From assembly GCA_021647205.1 (NCBI GenBank), contig JAKIVD010000010.1, positions 1-64,000 of the forward strand: a DNA stretch of 64,000 nucleotides. The letters run 5' to 3'. Of this stretch, positions 1 to 12,000 are shown piece by piece. This DNA is from Bacteroidales bacterium (GTDB taxonomy: Bacteria > Bacteroidota > Bacteroidia > Bacteroidales > F082). The notes beneath the pieces are model-generated. The model was not told the DNA's origin and searched no databases. It saw nothing but the letters and a program-made list of their open reading frames with translations. Position numbers and translations under genes: made by a program. Within the stretch, counting starts at the first letter, position 1, and every line of letters starts with the position of its first letter.

Positions 1-283
1 AGGGTGCGGCCGGTGTGCCGGCATTGAAATAAAATCCCCCGGGTGTAAGGCCTGAACCGTCCGGCACGTAAACCAACAGGCCGGTAGCCGGATTTTTGAT
101 GGTACTGCCATCCACATCGTTTACAAGCGCCACCCTGGGAATGAGCAAGCCACCCTCAGGGGATTTTACATCCAGCATAGCCGACGCATCGGGCGTGCTG
201 CCATCGGTGTTGATGGCCACCTGGGCGGTGAGGGAAATATTGAACAGTAAGCCAAGCATTAAGATAAAGGATAAATTTTTCAT
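1..283 (-). CDS. N-terminus of a third S74-type fibre protein (cut by window edge)
   Basis: The first 94 codons of a minus-strand gene whose remainder lies left of the window. It starts with a Sec signal peptide ([21 protein letters not shown]) followed by the [28 protein letters not shown] module that opens the two complete fibre proteins here. Over all 283 bases it aligns without gaps to the start of the next gene (3468-3750), with about seven substitutions by eye. It is therefore a recent paralogue, or that region has been homogenised by gene conversion. Whether the rest of the gene is intact cannot be seen. Confidence 0.85.
1..283. repeat. Direct repeat copy A (second copy 3468-3750)
   Basis: Bases 1-283 and 3468-3750 match in the same orientation with a constant offset of 3467 and about seven mismatches. 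The match covers the 5' coding part of two neighbouring fibre genes and stops at the start codons; the upstream sequences differ. Recombination between the copies would delete or duplicate one complete fibre gene while keeping the reading frame. Confidence 0.85.
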
Positions 284-310
284 AAGAGTAGGTTTTATGG
301 GTTAAATATT

Positions 311-365
311 CGGGTTACAGCTTACGGGTTACAGGTTACGGGTTACGGGTTACAGGTTACGGGTT
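311..365. repeat. Short tandem repeat of GGTTACG/GGTTACA units between fibre genes
   Basis: The gap between two fibre genes contains consecutive near-identical units of GGTTACG or GGTTACA. Related short motifs (ATTACGGGTTACG) recur at about 14410-14435, again between genes. No protein or RNA gene is seen; it looks like an intergenic simple repeat. Confidence 0.7.
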
Positions 366-414
366 TTGCCATTTCATGGGTGGTCATCAATCGCTAAAAA
401 CCGATGGCTGATGA

Positions 415-3400
415 CTATTTATCACTCACCAACTTCTTTAAAAGCTCAATTTCCTTTTTTAGCAGTTCGATGGTTTGTTGCTGCTGCTCTATGTTAGTCT
501 GCTGCTCCTGTACAGCTTTTACCAGGGGCACGACAAATTCGGCATAGCGCAGGCCATAGTGTGAGGTTTCATTTTTTGGTTTATCTATCCCATGAAAATC
601 ATAGCCTGTACTTTTGGCTGCTGCTTCCACTTCCTGGGCAATAAAACCGGATTGTAGTTCGGCTGCTTTAAGTTGCTCGGATTCCGGCGGACGCGAACGT
701 TCATCAGTACCATAAAACCGCGCAATGGCATCCATGTCCAGGTGATAGGTTACCGGTCTGAGTTTCATGATAAAATCAAGCCCGACTACATTTTGCTGTA
801 TCCCGGTCTTAAATCTTTTATCGGAAACATTCGTCCAGTTGGCAAAACCGCCAATCGTTGAAACAGACGCGTCCCCGATTCTGACCGTATTAGAAGCCCC
901 GGGTTCTGCATTATGGCCCAATGCGGTTGAATTTGTCAAGGAAGCTCCTGTGTTTAAAGCGCCATATCCCAAAGCAGTATTGAAAGTTCCGGTCGTGTTG
1001 GTGCCCAGTGCATAAGCTCCGCAAGCAGTATTATGATTTCCTGAAATATTTAAGTCGAGTGAACGATAACCGAGTGCGCTGTTGAGTTCTCCGGTTGTGT
1101 TTACCGGAAGTGACTTATACCCACAAGCCGAATTGGAGAAGCCACTAGTATTTTGCTCAAGAGCAAAATAGCCGATTGCCATATTGTAATTCCCTGTACT
1201 CCATTTTAATGCACTCACTCCAACACCAGTATTTCTAATTCCTGAATTGAACTCCATGGCTCTGTTACCAATGGCTGTGTTGTCACTTTCTGTTGTTTGG
1301 GTATACAGGGCATATACACCTAATGCAGTATTTCTACTACCCGTTGTATTGCCAGACATCGCCTTATACCCCATTGAAGTATTTTCTGTCCCTGTTGTAT
1401 TATCAAGCAATGAAGAAGCGCCATTTGCTGTATTTTGAGCACCAGTTGTATTTGAGTGAAGCGCCTGATAACCAACAGCGGAGTTATCGCCGCCCGTTGT
1501 ATTTGCAAATAGTGCTTTTGAACCCACTGCCGTATTGTATTTTGCCTGTCCCGAACCAGCCCCAATGCCATTGTTGTACAAGGCAGAGTCACCAACAGCC
1601 ACCAGGTTTGAACGCGTAGTGTTCGACCTTAAAGCACTAACACCGATAGCTACGTTAGAGTTGCCTGTTGTATTATCGTACATAGTGTATGAACCCATTG
1701 CAGTATTGTTGTCTCCGCTTGTGTTGTAGTAAAGCGTTCGAAAGCCGTAGGCATTGTTATAGCTTCCTGTCGTATTCGTAAAGAGCGAAGTGAAACCGTT
1801 TGCGTTATTCAAATTTCCGCTGGTGTTTGAAGTGAGTGTGTGAGAACCGTAAGCCGTATTGTTTGTGCCCGTGGTGTTTGCAGTGAGTGACTGAAAACCT
1901 GTTGCCGTATTGCTGAATCCTGTTGTGTTGGCATAAAGGGCTTTTGAGCCGACAGCAGTATTGTAGTTTGCATGAGAAGTTGTGCTGGCTCCTGTCCCGT
2001 TATTGTACAAAGCCGAATCACCTATTGCCACCAGGTTTGAGCGGTCGGTGTTGTTAAATAAGCTGCTTGCGCCGATAGCCACATTGGAATAGCCAGTAGT
2101 ATTCTTGTATAATACCTGATATCCGGCAGCTGTATTATCGTAGCCGGTGGTATTTGCTTGGAGTGCCTTCGAACCAATGGCAGTATTGTATCTTGCATGA
2201 TCAGTATGGCTTGCTCCAGTGCCGTTATTGTACAAAGCCGAATCGCCCACAGCCACCAGGTTGGAGCGGTCAGTATTTCTATACAGTGATTTTGCACCAA
2301 TAGCAACATTGGAATGGCCGGTTGTGTTAAAACGAAGTGATAGATAACCATCTGCAGTATTGGCAATTCCTGTTGTATTTTGATTAAGTGCAAAATACCC
2401 ATTTGCAGTATTGGCATTTCCTGTTGTATTTTCCTGAAGAGCGTACGCTCCATTTGCCGTATTGATATTTCCTGTTATATTCTTGTGTAATGTAGCATAA
2501 CCGGTTGCTGTGTTTTTGTAACCTGTGTCGTTGTACTTCAAAGATGCTGCTCCGGTTGCTGTATTGTTGTAACCAGCTGTATTGATATACATTGTACCCG
2601 ATCCACTTGCCGTGTTACCACTACCTGTTTTATTCAAATAAAGGGCTTTGTATCCAATAGCAGTGTTTTCATTTCCTGAAGTATTTATAGCAAGTGAATT
2701 TGCACCTATGGTTGTATTGTAATTGCCCATTGTATTCGCGGCAAGGCTACTGTCACCAAAGGCTGTGTTAAAATCCCCTATACTATTTGCAGCCAGCGAT
2801 TTTGCTCCGGTTGCGGTGTTGTGGCTGCCCTCAGTATTGGCAAAAAGTGCGCTGTCGCCGCTGGCGGTGTTGTAGCTTCCGCTCGTGTTTTTGTTCAGGG
2901 AGTATGCACCCGTCGCAGTGTTGTTTGAGCCGGTGGTGTTGGAAAACAATGACTTAGTGCCAATTGCCGTGTTTTTTCTCCCGCTTGCGTTGTTGTACAT
3001 GGACATGTACCCCAATGCCGTATTGTAATCTTCGTTGTTTTTAAACAGTGCGTAGGCACCCGAGGCCGTATTGTAATTGCCGCTGCTGTTGGTGAAAAGG
3101 GCATAAGCACCCACAGCGTTGTTAAAAGAACCGGTGGCGCTGTTTTGCAGGGCGTAGGCCCCGGTGGCGGTATTTAAGCTTCCCGTCGTGGTGAACTTTC
3201 CTGCTGACCGGCCAATAAAAACATTCCTGCGGTTGGTTAAATCATCATTTGCACCAGCACCTTCCCCTATAAATACAGAGTTCCCCGTATTCAGCACTTC
3301 CAGTTGCCCTTTGGGTGTAAGCCGCAGGTAGATGGTGTTATTACTTCGGAAATCAACGGCTACATTGTTTACTGTTCCCAGGAAGTTTTTCCCGGCGACC

Positions 3401-3750
3401 ATGCCGGTGTTTCCAAAAGTCTGCCAGGCATCTTCATCGGTATTTCCGTAAAAAAAACGGTTCCAGAAGGGTGCGGCCGGTGTGCCGGCATTGAAATAAA
3501 ATCCCCCGGGTGTAAGGCCTGAACCGTCCGGCACGTAAACCAACAGGCCGGTAGCCGGATTTTTGATGGTACCGCCATCCACATCGTTTACAAGTGCCAC
3601 CCTGGGAATAAGCAAGCCACCCTCAGGGGATTTTACATCCAGCATAGCCGACGCATCGGGCGTGCTGCCATCGGTGTTGATGGCCACCTGGGCGGTGAGG
3701 GAAAGGTTTAACAGTAAGCCAAGCAATAAGATAAAGGATAAATTTTTCAT
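415..3750 (-). CDS. Repetitive surface-fibre protein with NTAxG beta-roll repeats and C-terminal peptidase S74 chaperone domain
   Basis: 1111 residues. Order: signal peptide (1-20); N-terminal [23 protein letters not shown] module (about 21-130); an '[19 protein letters not shown]' entry motif (about 158-182); about 45 units of a 17-residue repeat of the form NTAxGxxxLxxNTTGxx (about 185-955); an S74 domain from Ser976; and a Gln/Leu/Lys-rich coiled coil (about 1075-1111). The repeats resemble the NSxAxG left-handed beta-roll repeats of YadA heads. S74 domains are known from phage tail spikes, where they fold as trimers and then cut themselves off. Here the S-D-x-x-x-K pattern (Ser976, Lys981) is kept, so self-cleavage is possible. 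No T9SS sorting tail, lipobox or autotransporter barrel is visible, so anchoring is unknown. A trimeric surface fibre is an inference. Confidence 0.85.
900..3225 (-). repeat. Coding minisatellite, 51-bp period
   Basis: The 17-residue protein repeat is encoded by consecutive 51-bp units over roughly this span, with a few longer units carrying the [18 protein letters not shown] variant. The units are diverged rather than identical, but neighbouring ones share runs of bases. This produces long accidental open frames on both strands that should not be annotated as genes. Confidence 0.8.
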
Positions 3751-3799
3751 AGCTATTGGGTTTTAAGTTTATATCGGGCACTGCTTTTCGGCCTGACTG

Positions 3800-4108
3800 T
3801 CAGTCAATAATGCTAAAGTCGCTGTACCCCTTTGTTGATTGATAATTGATTTCTGCTTTTTTCTTCCTGTACTTTTCTGCAATGCCGAGGCACCATTCTT
3901 TAAAGTGTTCTATCTGTTCGGTACGGCCCTCGGCTTCAAGGTACAGCGCGTCGTCTTCGGTGTACCTGGCAAGCCCTTTCACACCGCATTTAAAGGCCCG
4001 GTGCATGGCCGAAAACCGGATTCCCGTGTCTTTAAAGTTGCCGTAGATTTTGATGCTGATGTTTTTTATTTCACTTTCCAATGTTGTAGTATTTGCCAGC
4101 TTGTGCAT
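3800..4108 (-). CDS. Acylphosphatase-like protein, active site degenerate
   Basis: 102 residues, close to the usual acylphosphatase length of about 90-100. The segment 'IKIYGNFKDTGIRFSAMHRA' lines up with the family's phosphate loop GxVQGVGFR, and Arg31 is kept. The loop is altered (NFKDTG for RVQGVG). The family's catalytic Asn, in a GWVRNxxDG context, is replaced by Tyr in 'GLARYTEDD'. The later 'LEAEG' and 'FKEWC' segments fit the fold. True acylphosphatases hydrolyse acyl phosphates in the cytoplasm; this one may be inactive or only bind. It lies between fibre genes on the same strand, 49 bp upstream of the 1111-residue fibre gene, so co-transcription is possible. Confidence 0.65.
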   Translation of the reverse strand: MHKLANTTTLESEIKNISIKIYGNFKDTGIRFSAMHRAFKCGVKGLARYTEDDALYLEAEGRTEQIEHFKEWCLGIAEKYRKKKAEINYQSTKGYSDFSIID

Positions 4109-4195
4109 TCTTTTTCCGGTTATTGTGCAAATAACAATGATCCAAATGAGCTTTTCAAAAAAACGGGGGAGACAAATGGGGGGACAGGGGATGGG

Positions 4196-4253
4196 GGAGT
4201 GGCAAGTGATGAGTGGTGAGTGACGATTAGCGATTGACGAATGACAATTTTGG
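4196..4253. repeat. Degenerate GTGATGAGTG/GACGAATGAC simple repeat
   Basis: Imperfect alternation of GTGATGAGTG, GTGAGTGACG and GATTGACGAATGAC units in the gap upstream of the acylphosphatase-like gene. It contains no gene. It is similar in style to the other intergenic simple repeats in this window. Confidence 0.55.
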
Positions 4254-4285
4254 GGCGAGATGGGAGGGGTGGAATTGAAAAATCA

Positions 4286-4428
4286 GGCCGCACCTACGGA
4301 GCTCATTCCATGATTTATGGTTTTTCTGTAAACAGGGCGCACCTCTGGCGCTTAAACCAAAAGCCTCGTCGAGGCGAAATGTTTATAGAAAATTTAATAC
4401 GGAAAAAAGCAGCTCCGCAGGTGCGGCC
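4286..4428. repeat. Palindromic intergenic element with nested inverted repeats
   Basis: About 143 bp, bounded by an 18-bp inverted repeat (4286-4303 against 4411-4428, one mismatch). A second inverted pair lies inside (4322-4333 TTTTCTGTAAAC against 4381-4392 GTTTATAGAAAA, one mismatch). Within that are two short hairpins: GCGC-acctctg-GCGC at 4337-4351 and GCCTCG-T-CGAGGC at 4363-4375. The nesting predicts a four-way cruciform or a long branched RNA. An accidental open frame runs through it on the plus strand, but its composition is explained by the palindrome. The element resembles dispersed palindromic repeats I associate with Bacteroidota genomes; copy number cannot be judged from one window. 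Confidence 0.7.
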
Positions 4429-4547
4429 TCCTGGTCGTCCGGCCACCGAAGAAAAAAACTTCAATACAGTACGGATTTTCATTAGTGGTCAGACGATTAC
4501 CAAAACAGTGTTGGCAGCCTGAAAAGGGGAAAATCAGGTTGTTGCAA

Positions 4548-6512
4548 TCAGATGGAGGCGACAAACTCAAAGAGGGAAGCCCCGGTATCCAAACCAAATT
4601 TCTTCCTTAATCGCTGGCGGCTTTTTTTTACGGATGCAACAGTTACATTGAGTAATTGCGCGCTTTCGCTGGTAGTGAGCCGGATGCGGATGTAGGCAGT
4701 CAGCCGGATGTAGGTTTCACTCAGCCCGGGATGCTTCCGGTTCAGCTTGTCAAAAAAACCGGGATGGACTTTTTCGAAGCTGAGTTTGAATTTTTGCCAG
4801 TTTTGATCGATGTCGATGTTGTTGTTTATCAACCGGATGAGGTCCGGTATAAAATCTTCATTTCCCTTTGCTTTCGAACCAGTAAGTATTTCCGCTTTGA
4901 TATTGGTGAGTGCTTCATTTTTGTTCACTATGCACAATGCGGAGTTGACAAGCTCGTTGTTTTTTTGTTCAATTTCGGCCCTGTGTTTTTCCCTCTGCAA
5001 CCTGTTGAGTTGTTTTTCGGCAAAAACTTTATCTTCGAGATGCTCCTTTTCTGCCTCTTTTTTTGCCAGTTCCATTCTCCTCAGCTCCCTCACCCTTTCG
5101 TAAAGCAATTTGCTTTGTTTTAATGATTTTGACTTCAAACTGAAGGAATAAACCGTTGCCAGCAGCAACAGCACCAGGGCAGAAATTGCGACAAACAAGA
5201 ATCTTTTTTGGACTTTTTGTAACTGAATATCTTTCAGTAAAAGTTCGTTTTTGCGTTCTTTCTTCTCCGTTTCGTATTTGGTTTGCATTTCTGCAATGGC
5301 ATGCGCAGTAATATCGTTGTAGATGCTGTCGTTCAGTAAACCGATTTGTTCATATATCGCCACGGATTTCTCAAATTCACCAAACAAAAGGTAGTACTCA
5401 ACAAGGCTGTTGTAATTGGTCAGAACCAGGTGCCTTGCATTGATTTGTCTGGCAATGTCGAGGCTGTTCAGAAAATAAGCAGCCGCCGCTTTTGAGCCCT
5501 TTGAAAGGTGTACAGTCCCGATGTTGGTCAGTACCGAAGCCTCGGCAAACCTGTCGTTGGTTAGACGAATGAGGTCGAATGCTTTTTGATAATAAGCCAG
5601 CGCTTTATCAGGATCGCCCAGGTTTTTATAAATCAATCCTAAACTGTTGTAGGTTTCCGACAGACCTTCCTGATCGTTCAAATTCTCTTTGATGCCGGCC
5701 GATTCGAGGTAGTATTTTTTGGCCAGCTCAGTGCCACCGGTATTCTGGTAGGCATTGGCAAGGTTCAGTAAATTTTTTGAAACCTCTCTGTCATTATGCA
5801 GTTTGCGATTGGCTTCAAGGGCATTTAAAAGGTAGGCGATGGCATTGGGGTAGTCTTCGGTTTTCAGGTAAATGTTGCCAATGTTGTTGAAGTTGTATGC
5901 TTTTAGTTTCAGGTTTCCGGTTTTCTCAGCGATACGCAAGGCTTTGTGATAATAGGTGATTGCCTCATCGTATTCAGCCATCTGGTAGTAACAGCCGGCA
6001 ATATTGATGAGGTTGTTGGCCCATTTTGTCGAGTCATTGAGTCCGGCCCTGATGGTAGCCGAAAGTTCGTAATAATGAAGTGCATTTGAAAAATTGGATA
6101 ACCTGAGGTAATTCGTCCCGATTTTGGTGTAACATTTGGCCAGCAGTACCGAATCGGGGGTGGCCGTGAGATAGGGAACCGACTTTTTAAAATACGCATT
6201 GGAGACGGCCTGCATGCCTTGCAGCCATTTTACGATTCCCAGGTTGTAATAGGCTTTTCCGAGTAATTCGTTTGTACCGGTTTTTGCAGCAAGGCGGTGA
6301 AATTCCAGGGCATACGCTTCTGCCTTATCGTATTCTTTGGAACGTACATAATTGATGAGGATTTCTTTTGCGGCCTTCATCCGAACGCTGTCATTATCTG
6401 AAGTTTGTAAGATATTTTTTAAGCTGTCGGGATCGGATGGCAGGCTATAAGCATTTGCTCCGGTTCCGCATAGTAAAAAGATGAAAATAAAAAAGGGCAA
6501 GGATGATCGCAT
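4548..6512 (-). CDS. Membrane-anchored TPR regulator with C-terminal LuxR-like HTH
   Basis: 654 residues from the ATG at 6512. An upstream GTG at 6533 overlaps a likely -7 element (TATCTTTA on the minus strand), so I prefer the ATG. Order: signal peptide (1-21); about nine tetratricopeptide repeats (about 30-395); a transmembrane helix (437-458, beginning RFLFVAISALVLLLL); a charged coiled coil (about 465-538); and a C-terminal helix-turn-helix (about 598-648) with 'LTTSESAQLLNVTVASVKKS', typical of LuxR-like domains. The layout puts the TPRs in the periplasm and the HTH in the cytoplasm, as in known Bacteroidota one-component TPR regulators. There is no kinase or receiver domain. It sits between two fibre genes, which are possible targets (inference). 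Confidence 0.8.
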   Translation of the reverse strand: MRSSLPFFIFIFLLCGTGANAYSLPSDPDSLKNILQTSDNDSVRMKAAKEILINYVRSKEYDKAEAYALEFHRLAAKTGTNELLGKAYYNLGIVKWLQGMQAVSNAYFKKSVPYLTATPDSVLLAKCYTKIGTNYLRLSNFSNALHYYELSATIRAGLNDSTKWANNLINIAGCYYQMAEYDEAITYYHKALRIAEKTGNLKLKAYNFNNIGNIYLKTEDYPNAIAYLLNALEANRKLHNDREVSKNLLNLANAYQNTGGTELAKKYYLESAGIKENLNDQEGLSETYNSLGLIYKNLGDPDKALAYYQKAFDLIRLTNDRFAEASVLTNIGTVHLSKGSKAAAAYFLNSLDIARQINARHLVLTNYNSLVEYYLLFGEFEKSVAIYEQIGLLNDSIYNDITAHAIAEMQTKYETEKKERKNELLLKDIQLQKVQKRFLFVAISALVLLLLATVYSFSLKSKSLKQSKLLYERVRELRRMELAKKEAEKEHLEDKVFAEKQLNRLQREKHRAEIEQKNNELVNSALCIVNKNEALTNIKAEILTGSKAKGNEDFIPDLIRLINNNIDIDQNWQKFKLSFEKVHPGFFDKLNRKHPGLSETYIRLTAYIRIRLTTSESAQLLNVTVASVKKSRQRLRKKFGLDTGASLFEFVASI

Positions 6513-6649
6513 AAAATGTGAAGTTTGGCGCACTAAAGATAGGAAATTATCAATGCGCCAGGCCCCTTCACAAACAAAATCCCCTCCGGCAGTTAAAACA
6601 GCTTCATTATTAGAAGTCCCGGCACAAGAGAGAGCGGTGTGGATTTCGT

Positions 6650-9600
6650 TTATTTTCTCAGCAAAGCTTCCATCCGGTCGAGGCGGGTTTTGAGCTCGCG
6701 GTTTTCCTTTTCAAGTTGCTCTATTCTCAGGAGGTGATTTTGGTGGGCTACTTCTTGTTCCTGTACAGCTTTCACCAGGGGCACCACAAATTCGGCATAC
6801 GCCAAGCCGTAATAACTGGCATCGCCTTTGGGTTTCTTCACCCCGCTGAAGTCGTAGCCCGCCTGCCGGGCTGCGGTTTCCACTTCCTGCGCCAGAAAGC
6901 CGGATTGTTTAATGGTTTCAATCTCGTATTTTTCGGGATAGTCGCTCTCGTCTACTACCCCCATGAGCGCATCTATTTTATCTTTGTCCAGGTAATAAGT
7001 TACCGGGCGAAGATTCATGATGAAATCCAGCCCTTTCACGTCCTCCCGCACCTTGTTTTTTACCCTTTTATCCGAAATGATCGACCAGTCAACGTTTCCG
7101 CCGATCACGGTAACGCTGCTGTTGCCGATCACAACTCTGTTGCTGGCACTGGGTTCGGCGTTGTAGCCCAGGGCCGTACTGTTCGTCCAGCTTGTCCCCA
7201 GACTGAACGCGCCGTGGCCGACCGCCGTATTGTTGGTGCCGATGGTGTTGGCCAGCAGGGCCTGGTAACCGACGGCCGTGTTCTTGCCACCTGTGCTTGC
7301 ATTGTACAGCGCCTGATAGCCGGTGGCCGTGTTACGGTTGGCGGTGGTGTTGTAGTACAATGCCTGGACCCCGTTGGCCGTATTGCGGTTGCCTGTTGTG
7401 TTCTTGTAAAATGCCTGGTATCCCGAAGCAGTGTTGTTGCTGCCTGTGCTGTTTGTAAAAGCTACGTAATGCCCGCTTGCCGTGTTTGAAGTGCCGGTGG
7501 TGTTGGATGCCAGTGCCCGGTTGCCAATGGCAATGTTGTGTATGCCGTTGGTCGTGGCCGTGGGTTGGTTGCTGTACAAAGCGCTGTCGCCGATGGCAAT
7601 ATTGTGGCTGTGCCATCCTGCGCCCCCGTCATAAGACTGGGAATATAAGGCCTCCGTTCCAATGGCGATGTTGCTGCTCGCAGTGGTGTTCGAATAGAGT
7701 GCGGATAAACCGAATGAGATATTGTACCCTCCGAAAGTATTTGAATACAATGCATTATAACCCGTCGCGATGTTGTACTGTCCGGTCGTGTTGAAATAAA
7801 GCGCACTATAACCCGTCGCGATGTTGTACTGGCCGGATGTGTTGGAATATAACGCTTTATAACCCGTTGCGATGTTGTACTGGCCGGATGTGTTGGTATA
7901 CAATGTCCTGGTACCAATGGCCACGTTTCCCGAGGCGGTTGTATTTGAATAGAGGGCATATCTACCAACTGCTGTGTTGGAAGCACCGGTTGTGTTGTTG
8001 TATAGTACCCGAAAACCAACTATGGAATTGCCGATACCTGTTGTAGTGGAATAGCCGGCTTCATACCCGAAAGCAGTATTTGGACTGTTGGTACTCGAGT
8101 ACAATGCACGGTAGCCGACCGCCGTACTGTTACCAGCGTTTACTGAATAAAGTGCTTCGGCTCCAATGGCAACACTGCCGATTCCTATAGAGTTCGAATA
8201 GAGTGCCCGCATACCAACTGCTACATTTGAATACCCTGTTGTATTTGCGTTCAGCGCCAGAAAACCGAAAGCTGCGTTGTGACTTCCGGTGGTATTTGAA
8301 AGAAGTGAACTGTAGCCATTTGCCGTGTTCCAGTTGCCGGTCGTATTATTTAGAAGCGCGCTGTATCCGGTGGCTGTGTTAGAGCCCCCCGATATATTGG
8401 AAGTCAGTGCACTCACACCGATGGCCGTATTGTTACTCCCTGTCGTATTTGCATCCAGCGCACTACTGCCTATTGCAGTATTGGAACTTCCGGTAGTGTT
8501 CAACAAAAGACTTTGATGACCAACTGCCGTGTTGAGTCCTAGTGTTGCTTCATTGGCAGACAGGGCCTTGTAGCCAAGCCCGGTATTGCCTCCGCTTATA
8601 ATGTTTCCGCTCCCTGCGTGGTATCCGACAAAAACATTCCGGTTATTTGTTAAATCATCATTAGCTCCGGCGCCTTCCCCCAGAAAAACTGACTGTCCGG
8701 TTCCTGTTTGGGCGATGTGCCCGTTTACGTCCAGTTCTGCAAGGGGTGTTGCCGTGCCGATGCCGATGCTGTCGGCAGTATTGAAAACGTAATTACCGTT
8801 AACTGTCCATCCGCCACCGTTTATGGAATCGCCGCTGGCCCAGTTGGCATTGCCCGAAGCATCGGAGACCAGGACCAGCCCTGCGGCCTGTTTGCCGTCC
8901 ACGTAGCGCATGCTGCCTTGAACATCCAGGGTGGCCGCAGGTGTTGCCGTACCGATGCCGATGCTATCGGTGGTGTTGAGCACATAATTTCCGTTAACCG
9001 TCCAGCCGCTGTTGATTACCGTGTCGCCATTGGCCCAGTTTGCATTACCAGAGGCATCGGAAACCAAGACCAGTCCTGCCGCTTGCTTGCCGTCCACATA
9101 ACGTATCGTGCCGGCGACATCCAGAGTGGCAGTGGGGGTTGTCGTTCCCAATCCCAGGTAACCGTTGGCCAGGTCGCCGTAAAGGGTGTTGCCGATGTTT
9201 AACTGATCATTGCCTGTGGCCGATGGCGCATCCGCATTCGCGCCAATGATGATGTTGTTGCTGCCGGTTGTGATGTTGTCGCCGGCCATGAAACCCAGCG
9301 CGGTGTTTTGGTAACCGGTGGTATTGGTAAGCAACGACTTTGAACCGACAGCCGTGTTTTCTGTGCCTTCGATCGTTAAAGTTGCACCGGTCCCGTTGTT
9401 AAGCAATGCCGAATCGCCAACCGCCACAAGGAAATTGCGGTCGGTATTCCCCTTTAATGCATAAGCACCAATACCAACATTTGCCGAACCTGTGGTATTG
9501 TCGTGCAGCGACCAAAAACCGGTTGCCGTGTTTCTTTTGCCCTGCGTGTTGTTGTTGAGCGAACGCCTGCCGATTGCGGTATTGGCATTTCCACTGAAGT

Positions 9601-10519
9601 TAAAATATAGTGCGTTGTTGCCGACCGCCACATTGTTGATGCCACCCTGGTTTTCATAGAGGGCATAACTACCAATTCCAACGTTATTGTTGCCTACCGA
9701 GTTACGGTAGAGTGAAAACGAACCATACGCAATGTTTAGACCTCCTGTGGTGTTAAAATATAGCGAATACCCTCCTGTAGCCACATTATATGTTCCGCTT
9801 GAATTTCTTAAAAGTGAAGAATAGCCGATGGCGATATTCTGAGACCCTGTGGAATTGAAGTTTAAAGCAGAATACCCGAGGGCCATATTGTAATTTCCAC
9901 TAGTATTGTTACGAAGTGTGCTGTATCCTATTGCAGTTGAAGCTATGCCGGTTGTGTTTTTGTTGCCGGAAAAATAACCTATGAAGACATTCTTGTTATT
10001 CGTCAAATCATCATCGGTCCCTGCGCCTTCGCCGATAAAAACGGAATTACCTGTGTTCAATGTTTCCAGCTGTCCCTTGGTGGTGATGCGTAACTTCGTT
10101 GTGTTGTTCGTACGTACGTCAAGCGCCTGGTTGTCGGTGGTGCCGATAAAGTCGGTACCCGATGTTGTGCCGCTGTTACCGGATGTTGTCCATCCCGCGC
10201 CGCTGCCCGAGGCAGGAACCATCCGCACCCAGTTGGGGGTGGCCGGTGTGCCGTTATTGTAATAGAAGCCGGCAGGACTGAGGCCGCCGGTGCCCGTATT
10301 GTAAACCAGCAGTGCCGTGGCCGGACTGGCGATGGTTACGGCGTCGGTGGTAGCGGTCAGTGCCACCCGCGGAATGAGGATTCCACCACTGGCTGATTTC
10401 ACGTCCAGCATGGCCGAGATATCCGGTGTACTGCCGTCCGTGTTGATAGCCACCTGGGCTCTTAAGGAAATATTCACAAATAAAATGAGTAAAACAATGG
10501 AGGTAAGAAATCTTTTCAT
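6650..10519 (-). CDS. Large repetitive surface-fibre protein with two beta-roll blocks and C-terminal S74 domain
   Basis: 1289 residues. Order: signal peptide (1-21); [23 protein letters not shown] module (to about 130); first SVFIGEGAG entry motif and beta-roll block of about 15 NTAxG units (about 160-430); three GLGT/GIGTxTPxAxLDVxG modules, two carrying a near-identical VDGKQAAGLVLVSDASGNANW segment (about 440-600); second SVFLGEGAG entry motif and a longer block of about 28 units (about 610-1115); S74 domain starting at Ser1149 with Lys1154 at the +5 position; and a heptad coiled coil (about 1250-1289). It looks like an internal duplication of the head seen once in the 1111-residue paralogue. 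The same S74 Ser-Lys pair suggests chaperoned trimerisation and self-cleavage. Anchor and ligand are unknown. Confidence 0.85.
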   Translation of the reverse strand: MKRFLTSIVLLILFVNISLRAQVAINTDGSTPDISAMLDVKSASGGILIPRVALTATTDAVTIASPATALLVYNTGTGGLSPAGFYYNNGTPATPNWVRMVPASGSGAGWTTSGNSGTTSGTDFIGTTDNQALDVRTNNTTKLRITTKGQLETLNTGNSVFIGEGAGTDDDLTNNKNVFIGYFSGNKNTTGIASTAIGYSTLRNNTSGNYNMALGYSALNFNSTGSQNIAIGYSSLLRNSSGTYNVATGGYSLYFNTTGGLNIAYGSFSLYRNSVGNNNVGIGSYALYENQGGINNVAVGNNALYFNFSGNANTAIGRRSLNNNTQGKRNTATGFWSLHDNTTGSANVGIGAYALKGNTDRNFLVAVGDSALLNNGTGATLTIEGTENTAVGSKSLLTNTTGYQNTALGFMAGDNITTGSNNIIIGANADAPSATGNDQLNIGNTLYGDLANGYLGLGTTTPTATLDVAGTIRYVDGKQAAGLVLVSDASGNANWANGDTVINSGWTVNGNYVLNTTDSIGIGTATPAATLDVQGSMRYVDGKQAAGLVLVSDASGNANWASGDSINGGGWTVNGNYVFNTADSIGIGTATPLAELDVNGHIAQTGTGQSVFLGEGAGANDDLTNNRNVFVGYHAGSGNIISGGNTGLGYKALSANEATLGLNTAVGHQSLLLNTTGSSNTAIGSSALDANTTGSNNTAIGVSALTSNISGGSNTATGYSALLNNTTGNWNTANGYSSLLSNTTGSHNAAFGFLALNANTTGYSNVAVGMRALYSNSIGIGSVAIGAEALYSVNAGNSTAVGYRALYSSTNSPNTAFGYEAGYSTTTGIGNSIVGFRVLYNNTTGASNTAVGRYALYSNTTASGNVAIGTRTLYTNTSGQYNIATGYKALYSNTSGQYNIATGYSALYFNTTGQYNIATGYNALYSNTFGGYNISFGLSALYSNTTASSNIAIGTEALYSQSYDGGAGWHSHNIAIGDSALYSNQPTATTNGIHNIAIGNRALASNTTGTSNTASGHYVAFTNSTGSNNTASGYQAFYKNTTGNRNTANGVQALYYNTTANRNTATGYQALYNASTGGKNTAVGYQALLANTIGTNNTAVGHGAFSLGTSWTNSTALGYNAEPSASNRVVIGNSSVTVIGGNVDWSIISDKRVKNKVREDVKGLDFIMNLRPVTYYLDKDKIDALMGVVDESDYPEKYEIETIKQSGFLAQEVETAARQAGYDFSGVKKPKGDASYYGLAYAEFVVPLVKAVQEQEVAHQNHLLRIEQLEKENRELKTRLDRMEALLRK
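7150..8640 (-). repeat. Coding minisatellite, second beta-roll block of the large fibre
   Basis: Consecutive, mostly 51-bp units coding for the 17-residue NTAxGxxALxxNTTG repeat. Around 7730-7900 four neighbouring units share the sequence for 'YNIATGYxALYxNT' and are close enough in DNA for slipped-strand change in copy number. Confidence 0.75.
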
Positions 10520-10887: not shown

Positions 10888-12000
10888 ATGAAAAACCGGA
10901 TTTCCTGTTTTGTTTTTTTATTTTTAAGCCTGCAGGCTATGCAGTCTTTCGGGCAGTTCAGTGTGAGCAGGGTGCTTGACCGGAATGTCACCACCTCGCA
11001 GGACGGGTTTTTCTATGCCCTGCCGCAGACAGTCCTGGAGATCAACTTGCTTGTCGAAAAACTTGAAAAGAAGAAAGGTCCGCTGGCCGACTTTACCGAA
11101 GAATACCTGGGAACGGACCAATTCATCACCTCCAACAGTACCTCTTACCGCTTGCTGGACGTGCATATAGAACCCATAACGGAGCCCGACCCCGGCAAGG
11201 TGTACTATGTCATGTTTCCTGCCGACCGCGCCAAAGATGCAAAACCCACGGGCTTCAGCCTTAGTCCGCAGGGTATTCTTGCCGCCTACGACCCCGAAGG
11301 ACAGACCACAGCAAGAATCATTGAAAACGACATCAATCAGACCATCATTGTTGACAATGCCGACGAGGGCTTTAACTACGGGGCCGATTACAACCGAATG
11401 AAGAAAGTGGATACCGTCATCCGCAAAATCACCATCGACACGCTAACCATCGACCGTTTTTTGTTCAAGACCAGTTGGGTGGACAAAAGCCCGGAAGAAC
11501 GCGCCAACGAGGCTGCCAAACGCATTGTCGAAATACGCGAAAGCCGTTTCAACCTGATCAGCGGTTTTCAGGAAGTCAACTACGGCGAAAGCATCAAATA
11601 CATGGACAGGCAGCTCAGACAATTGGAAAGAGAATATCTCGAGCTTTTTCTGGGAAAGGAGACCAAATCAATTGAGAGTTTGACCGTTTATTTCACGCCA
11701 TCCAGGGAAAAAACATCGGCCACACTCTTCCGCGGAACCGATGGAAGCCGTGTGGAACTCGAAATAAAAAGTCAGGGCACAACACGGAATCTGCCCTTGG
11801 AACCCTTGTCAAAAACCGACAACATTTTTTACCGTATTCCCGAAAGCGCTGTTGTGGAAGTTACCCGCGAGGGCAAAGTGTTTTACCGGGGAAACTTTAG
11901 CCTTCCGCAGTTGGGCGTTGTGGCTGCAGCACCGCTGAACCGTTCCCGGCTGCATTTTGATCCCAAAACCGGGGCACTTGTAAAAATCGTCAGAGAGTAA
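10888..12000 (+). CDS. DUF4831 family secreted protein
   Basis: 370 residues from the ATG at 10888, with a signal peptide (1-22, ending QSFGQ). The body matches my recollection of DUF4831, a family of unknown function common in Bacteroidota: a 'YALPQTVLEI' opening, a middle segment 'RFLFKTSWVDKSPEERANEA', then 'ESRFNLISGFQEVNYGESIKYM' with a helical 'LEREYLELFLG'. The C-terminal part is a beta-rich domain ending in 'LHFDPKTGALVKI'. There is no lipobox, so it is probably periplasmic or outer-membrane associated. Its last 11 bases overlap the 3' end of the convergent kdsA gene. Confidence 0.75.
   Translation: MKNRISCFVFLFLSLQAMQSFGQFSVSRVLDRNVTTSQDGFFYALPQTVLEINLLVEKLEKKKGPLADFTEEYLGTDQFITSNSTSYRLLDVHIEPITEPDPGKVYYVMFPADRAKDAKPTGFSLSPQGILAAYDPEGQTTARIIENDINQTIIVDNADEGFNYGADYNRMKKVDTVIRKITIDTLTIDRFLFKTSWVDKSPEERANEAAKRIVEIRESRFNLISGFQEVNYGESIKYMDRQLRQLEREYLELFLGKETKSIESLTVYFTPSREKTSATLFRGTDGSRVELEIKSQGTTRNLPLEPLSKTDNIFYRIPESAVVEVTREGKVFYRGNFSLPQLGVVAAAPLNRSRLHFDPKTGALVKIVRE

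Follow-up and report, generated by a model that had tools for sequence, protein, structure and literature searches.

Evidence for a multigene family of chimeric, self-chaperoned fiber proteins, probably surface adhesins, in a Bacteroidales genome

We describe a multigene family that probably encodes chimeric, self-chaperoned fiber adhesins. The stretch of DNA that was analyzed (the window) comprises the first 64,000 nucleotides of contig C31 in a Bacteroidales genome assembly of 3.53 Mb that is 98% complete. Its fiber genes join a putative signal peptide and a Bacteroidota head to a repetitive shaft and an S74 domain of phage type, and their products are most likely regulated, self-chaperoned trimeric surface fibers.

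Fiber genes of the window and their relatives

The preliminary description of this DNA had listed three minus-strand fiber genes, and all three ORFs are present (Table 1). It had also given the three a common head and repeat shaft; this proved right for the two complete genes, while the third has only its signal peptide and head in view, being truncated because the window starts at base 1 of the contig. This copy 0 is identical to fiber gene 1 at 275 of 282 bases, and such near-identity suggests that duplication or gene conversion took place recently. Between the two, window positions 283-415 hold short direct repeats, imperfect and of the type CCCGTAACCTGTAAC. The S74 domain expected in both complete fibers was recovered at 39.3 and 29.5 bits, over the Pfam cut-off of 22 (Peptidase_S74, PF13884), and neither fiber matched any model in an NCBIfam scan. 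The bodies of fibers 1 and 2 contain 45 and 41 N-x-[AGTS]-x-G motifs, about 10-fold or more above shuffled sequence (500 shuffles each, with means of 3.5 and 4.2 and maxima of 11 and 10). Successive motifs are most often 17 residues apart, a spacing that accounts for 29 of 44 intervals in fiber 1 and 20 of 41 in fiber 2.

Table 1. Features of the fiber cluster, given as window positions
Feature	Position	Strand	Remarks
Fiber gene copy 0	2-283	minus	Signal peptide and head only; open at contig start
Fiber gene 1, 1111 aa	415-3750	minus	Signal peptide, head, linker, 17-residue repeat shaft, cap, S74, coiled coil
Head module of fiber 1, residues 21-105	3436-3690	minus	Gln at +1 of putative signal peptidase I site
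S74 intramolecular chaperone domain of fiber 1	610-825	minus	SDKRFK from Ser976 (predicted cleavage residue); Lys981 its predicted partner
C-terminal helix/coiled coil of fiber 1	418-546	minus	Helix 364-405 of structural model
Acylphosphatase-like gene	3800-4108	minus	Pfam Acylphosphatase, 37.6 bits
TPR-transmembrane-HTH regulator, 661 aa, start read as GTG	4548-6533	minus	TPRs by Pfam; membrane helix and HTH by eye
Fiber gene 2, 1289 aa	6650-10519	minus	Architecture of fiber 1; two repeat blocks split by another segment
S74 domain of fiber 2	6857-7075	minus	SDKRVK, Ser1149

A TPR-membrane-HTH regulator and an acylphosphatase-like gene had been reported between the fiber genes. Both ORFs are there, and Pfam recognizes the TPRs and the acylphosphatase, but not the HTH, for which the regulator gave no Pfam match at E up to 1. 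The acylphosphatase-like gene is probably a chance neighbor of the fibers, since no homolog was detected in 80 fiber loci of relatives (kept of 419; phmmer, E <=1e-3). To the right of the cluster, a DUF4831 gene occupies positions 10891-12000 (123 bits, Pfam). Promoter and terminator scans gave counts of 20 and 13, close to the 15.1 and 13.6 expected from shuffling.

Across the genome, 13 ORFs combine the head with S74, and they fall into seven clusters; the Pfam S74 model finds 12 ORFs, and a local S74 model adds C4:56722 plus a fragment at the end of contig C24. The SDx[RK]xK motif is present in 12 of 12 aligned S74 domains of this genome, with invariant Ser, Asp, and Lys columns. In a further 12 ORFs, among them the truncated copy 0 and one broken piece, the head occurs with no S74 domain; when five of these were scanned for FISUMP, four scored over the Pfam cut-off and one, beside the C22 fibers, scored below it. 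One head therefore carries both S74 and non-S74 tips across the paralog family, as in the mosaic adhesive trimer (MAT) superfamily of Bdellovibrio bacteriovorus considered below. Contigs C20, C21, C24, and C31 all end in fiber or head pieces, indicating that the assembly breaks at this gene family.

The window-type head has no Pfam match. It was found in at least 36 of 148 sampled Bacteroidota genomes, this one included, a lower bound given that up to 32 candidates were scored per genome. Twenty regions fetched from head-bearing genomes contained 25 head ORFs; eleven of these were scanned and had S74 (five), Lcl_C (two), Collar (one), or no Pfam domain (three). At L223:601-3363, a relative has three tandem head proteins; a scan of one of them showed a phage tail Collar domain at its end. 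The 80 relatives kept of 419 are labeled Bacteroidota apart from one Chlorobiota, one Ignavibacteriaceae, and one Gammaproteobacteria record; locus L118, with head and S74 fibers on a contig labeled as a Gammaproteobacteria MAG, is perhaps mis-binned. Among the 114 S74-model-positive ORFs in these 80 loci, 66 have the window-type head, 21 have a second head, 13 have another or none recognized, and the other 14 lack their 5' end. SDx[RK]xK occurs in 104 of the 114, and several of the other 10 are fragments or have no normal S74 end. The second head (YQAVVRD...VPYA; alignment A3), which also has no Pfam match, sits on S74 tails at, for example, L129:13995-17354 and L142:8636-10552, and none was found in the fetched stretches of the window's own genome. 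The occurrence of one S74 tail type on different heads argues that shafts and heads were recombined during the history of the family.

The repeat and S74 part of fiber 1 matched 109 of 50,697 phage records, all at <60% identity, and 34 of these matches cover at least 80% of the query. The phages include Synechococcus, Bacillus SPO1-like, Pelagibacter, and Flavobacterium phages and others. In contrast, the head of fiber 1 was found in 0 of the 50,697 records (tblastn, E up to 0.01). With the cassette in phages and the head in none, the fibers read as chimeras of a bacterial head and a phage-type repeat/S74 part. It is very improbable that they are instead structural tail fibers of a prophage or a contractile injection system, despite the 109 cassette-bearing phage records and the statement, in the available text of one paper, that eCIS fibers can carry S74 (PMC12923769). 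The fibers have signal peptides, their genes are spread over seven separate clusters, and their head is the part missing from the phage records. The contractile sheath model PF04984, positive in 3 of 14 controls, had 0 matches in the genome, and the right flank reads by eye as chromosomal housekeeping, the left flank lying beyond the contig end.

Predicted fold, export, and location of the fibers

Two parts of fiber 1, the 240 residues that begin the mature protein and the C-terminal 406 residues, were modeled with AlphaFold as single chains, each with an alignment of relatives. The head alignment used 41 of 53 sequences (2 from the window plus the 51 of 74 head ORFs that passed score, length, and no-N filters), with unclear starts and near-duplicates removed; the C-terminal alignment used 50 of 90, 88 of the 114 S74 ORFs having passed the filters. 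Mean pLDDT was 84 for the N-terminal model and 82 for the C-terminal model, and the five models of each spanned 84 to 65 and 82 to 64. The repeats of the C-terminal model matched UspA1 (Z 17.7; 217 residues, 3.2 A), BpaC (Z 16.7; 221 residues, 3.2 A), CbpF (Z 16.1), and YadA (Z 12.9), so that the YadA-type beta-roll proposed earlier for the repeats is now predicted, in single-chain models, with adhesin heads among the matches. The C-terminal S74 region matched the ICA domain of MyRF (Z 9.2; 124 residues, 2.6 A), and Foldseek gave probabilities of 1.00 for MyRF, 0.97 for the endosialidase chaperone 3gw6, and 0.89 for BpaC, with weak E-values for the whole C-terminal model (best, 0.02). The role of intramolecular chaperone assigned to this domain agrees with the predicted fold.

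Other beta-structures score close behind the adhesins for the C-terminal model (CsgA, Z 16.4; an ice-binding protein, 13.5; LpxD and GlmU, 10 to 11), and the N-terminal model is topped by an ice-binding protein (Z 11.6), followed by EibD (11.1) and by BoaA and BpaC (10.3). These scores make the predicted fold class of the repeats better supported than kinship with the adhesins. At the level of sequence, the Pfam scan gave no YadA_head match in the window fibers, and a search of solved structures gave best E-values of 0.55 for the head, 0.39 for the second head, and 0.55 for the C terminus, none of them credible. The head part (model residues 1-80, block pLDDT 80-91) had no good match in the PDB (best Foldseek E, 2.1) and reached Z 3.5 or less in a second structure comparison, poor matches that do not establish a new fold. 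Against a viral library, the first model had 28 matches at E up to 0.001, domains counted together.

The N termini of the fibers, read by eye, look Sec-type, as first described. All 14 aligned heads have Gln directly after the putative signal peptidase site, in keeping with the Bacteroidetes rule that Gln is expected after the signal peptidase I cleavage site, as given in the accessible portion of PMC5837995, and none of the 14 rows has a Cys near the cleavage site that could indicate a lipobox. A Pfam-A scan at E up to 1 found no C-terminal YadA barrel anchor in the window fibers. The Pfam scan, the list of T9SS tail matches, and the head alignment thus agree with the earlier statement that the window fibers have no barrel, lipobox, or T9SS tail.

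This genome nevertheless encodes SprA (2564 bits) and has 150 matches to the type-A tail model TIGR04183 among 150 scored of 184 candidates, which together suggest a working T9SS. The fibers could therefore be T9SS cargo whose C-terminal signal went unrecognized or was lost, a reading that we consider unlikely. A T9SS-like C-terminal domain was detected by a pattern test on 6 of 208 S74 or head ORFs (1/122, 2/35, 3/25, and 0/26 in the four sets), and an HMM of these six ends matches T9SS tails of the window's own genome at 5.6e-17. Against this, the pattern was found in none of the 26 fiber or head ORFs in the fetched stretches of that genome, none of its 150 scored tail matches falls in a fiber ORF, the window fibers end in a coiled coil, and the curated tail models (NCBIfam, Pfam) gave no match on the three tailed ORFs of locus L228. 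The tailed ORFs lie at L228:1397-3859, 3956-6904, and 7064-9280, L138:6505-7794, L191:1795-4671, and L196:1884-3197. In these ORFs the T9SS-like domain comes downstream of the self-cleaving domain, and cleavage ahead of export would fit poorly with such an order. SDx[RK]xK is intact in three of the six, and the combination of tail and motif raises the question of whether cleavage follows export. The T9SS-like tails of a few relatives leave export not wholly unexplained for the family and point to an outside location for at least some of its members.

The fibers might also be periplasmic or envelope-internal structural proteins that are not displayed outside. A Sec signal with Gln at +1 places them merely beyond the inner membrane, and the Pfam and T9SS tail searches found no outer-membrane anchor or export signal. 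We regard this as quite improbable, given that MAT fibers are surface displayed, that the tail-bearing relatives point outward, and that the ten best fold matches of the shaft, eight of them adhesin heads, are proteins that we take to be extracellular.

TPR regulators near fiber loci

In this genome, TPR genes adjoin five head-gene clusters, and their outputs differ: the HTH type of the window, two LytS-type kinases each with a LytTR regulator, a hybrid kinase with an AraC domain, and a HisKA_3 kinase. A sixth cluster, on contig C6, is adjoined by a gene with a regulator-like end and no Pfam match; this gene lies beside two tandem genes that combine the head with FISUMP (L168:4592-8495). Of the 12 TPR regulators counted, five have a head gene no more than 1.5 kb away (P about 2e-5, in a test made after the pattern was seen). 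The 12 were drawn from 28 matches, leaving out C41 (membrane glycosyltransferase-like by eye), C29 (not recovered), and the C6 gene, which has no TPR or HTH in Pfam; with C6 included, the count becomes 6 of 13 (P about 1e-6). At L016:16983-18294, a TPR-HTH regulator 5.8 kb from the C33 fiber is seemingly split into two ORFs by a stop; this broken gene was kept in the count. As a control, 3 of the 12 regulators lie near a T9SS-tail gene, as expected (P 0.48). These binomial values assume a uniform genome and hand-typed cluster spans and, for the T9SS control, a mean gene length.

The preliminary description had suggested a search for other genomes in which fiber and TPR-HTH regulator genes stay together; fiber and TPR genes do so in a minority of loci. 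In the 80 loci kept of 419, queries with the TPR part alone placed 20 of 24 TPR ORFs within 2 kb of a fiber, in 18 loci, and these are divergent (11), in the same direction (5), or convergent (4) with respect to it. In two cultured environmental relatives with head and S74 genes, Flavobacterium filum DSM 17961 (L101) and F. fontis DSM 25660 (L104), a TPR kinase gene is 0.7 to 0.8 kb from the fiber. In a second set of 26 non-overlapping loci, 8 of 9 TPR ORFs lie within 2 kb, in 6 loci. After edge correction, the 80 loci have 73.6 TPR ORFs per Mb in the innermost 2 kb and 9.6, 5.7, 9.1, and 0.0 per Mb in successive outer 2-kb bins, and the rate ratios are 9.7 (P 1e-6) for the 80 loci and 10.3 (P 0.007) for the 26; without correction for cut ORFs, they are 11.1 and 11.6 (P 2e-7 and 0.0045). 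All of these P values are optimistic, as the loci share ancestry (several are from Flavobacterium). Queries with the whole regulator, which also catch kinases, gave a gentler fall-off (85.9, 26.6, 15.7, 6.8, and 0.0 per Mb). Hydropathy indicates a membrane helix in 19 of the 20 near TPR ORFs of the first set and in 8 of 8 of the second. TPR ORFs were near the window-type head in 18 of 66 cases and near other heads in 5 of 34, a difference that is not significant in the 80 loci (P 0.21). A TPR sensor is frequent at fiber loci and not obligatory, most loci having no near TPR ORF.

There is some chance, though a minority one in our estimate, that the TPR genes are near the fibers by coincidence or through shared variable islands, with no regulatory link. 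No more than about a fifth of loci have one (18/80 and 6/26), the output domains differ among loci, and the loci are not independent. However, the edge-corrected density drops tenfold beyond 2 kb in two samples, and TPR regulators are not enriched at the T9SS-tail genes of this genome.

Proposed model and comparison with known systems

We propose the following model for regulated, self-chaperoned trimeric fibers. Sec would export each fiber, and signal peptidase I would cleave it before the Gln read from its sequence. The Bacteroidota-type head would stay at the cell and present the phage-type shaft, modeled as a beta-roll that resembles YadA heads and has about 17 residues in each turn. Three chains may trimerize, assisted by the S74 domain and coiled coil at the C terminus, after which, judging from S74 family biochemistry and the conserved motif, the S74 part would cut itself off before Ser976, release 136 residues, and leave a locked fiber. 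The fibers would be displayed at the surface with the C-terminal end outward and act in adhesion, and the paralogs, with their FISUMP, Lcl_C, collar, or other tips, could provide a repertoire of binding ends. In the regulators, a single membrane helix would connect the TPR domain, which is probably periplasmic, with an output domain in the cytoplasm, and the regulators adjoining some clusters probably control them in a FimS-like manner.

More tentatively, and with limited confidence, we consider a phylum-wide Bacteroidota display system in which a head without a Pfam match mounts phage-derived, self-cleaving trimers and other tips at the cell surface by a route with no need of the canonical T9SS signal and TPR transmembrane sensors encoded beside them read the fiber. 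From the periplasmic side, the sensors might detect an unassembled subunit, the head, or the S74 piece once released, and tune fiber expression in response. If the fibers act as proposed, two heads without a Pfam match would gain a role, and what Bacteroidota TPR sensor proteins sense would become testable, with a fiber part as the candidate signal here.

Exact-phrase searches of a set of open papers returned none that describes the Bacteroidota head or its association with TPR genes; Bacteroidota proteins may be listed in the supplementary tables of PMC10769870. One eCIS paper aside, exact-phrase searches of open papers also found none on Bacteroidetes S74, tail fiber, or FISUMP proteins.

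The regulator recalls FimS of Porphyromonas gingivalis, described in the available part of PMC11053733 as a periplasmic TPR sensor of fimbriae for which the authors propose a polypeptide signal. In FimS/FimR, a periplasmic TPR sensor controls surface fibers, and the window regulator, which lies beside fiber genes, probably acts likewise. Unlike FimS, the window regulator reads as a one-protein TPR-HTH; its nearest NCBIfam models are FimS itself (NF053520), at 100 bits far below the cut-off of 600, and the BT3442 family, at 58 against 940.

Like S74 phage fibers such as the T5 L-shaped fiber, the K1F endosialidase, and the SPO1 tail spike, the window fibers have an intramolecular chaperone with a self-cleavage motif, and SPO1-type phages match much of the repeat and S74 query. 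The window fibers differ in their putative Sec signal, their Bacteroidota head, and the lack of phage context in the assembled flank. With trimeric autotransporter adhesins (YadA, UspA1, and BpaC) they share the predicted beta-roll shaft. In contrast to those proteins, they gave no match to a C-terminal barrel anchor and carry a chaperone at the C terminus instead, an exchange from which we infer that the head is probably at the cell and the C terminus outward.

The closest precedent is the MAT superfamily of B. bacteriovorus, in which, according to the text available of PMC10769870, a front domain of ~130 residues is common to 21 proteins, of which 13 have S74 at the end; Bd3182 cleaves itself at Ser782, and members carrying a tag were located on the surface. 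As far as that text goes, the resemblance extends to a signal peptide, a conserved front domain, a shaft, swappable tips that include S74 with an SDxxxK motif, a large paralog family, and a phage-like tip; the window head looks analogous to the conserved beta-rich domain that comes after the signal peptide in MAT proteins. Compared with MAT as described there, the window family belongs to another phylum and has a YadA-like repeat shaft, TPR gene neighbors, and T9SS-like tails in a few relatives, and its surface display and trimers are predictions. The suggestion that this is a little-described system may hold for the Bacteroidota head and the TPR link, and less so for the general plan, which has a precedent in MAT and a repeat and S74 half common to phage fibers. 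If the proposed model were right, the idea of a chimeric phage-fiber adhesin would extend from one predator to a large environmental phylum.
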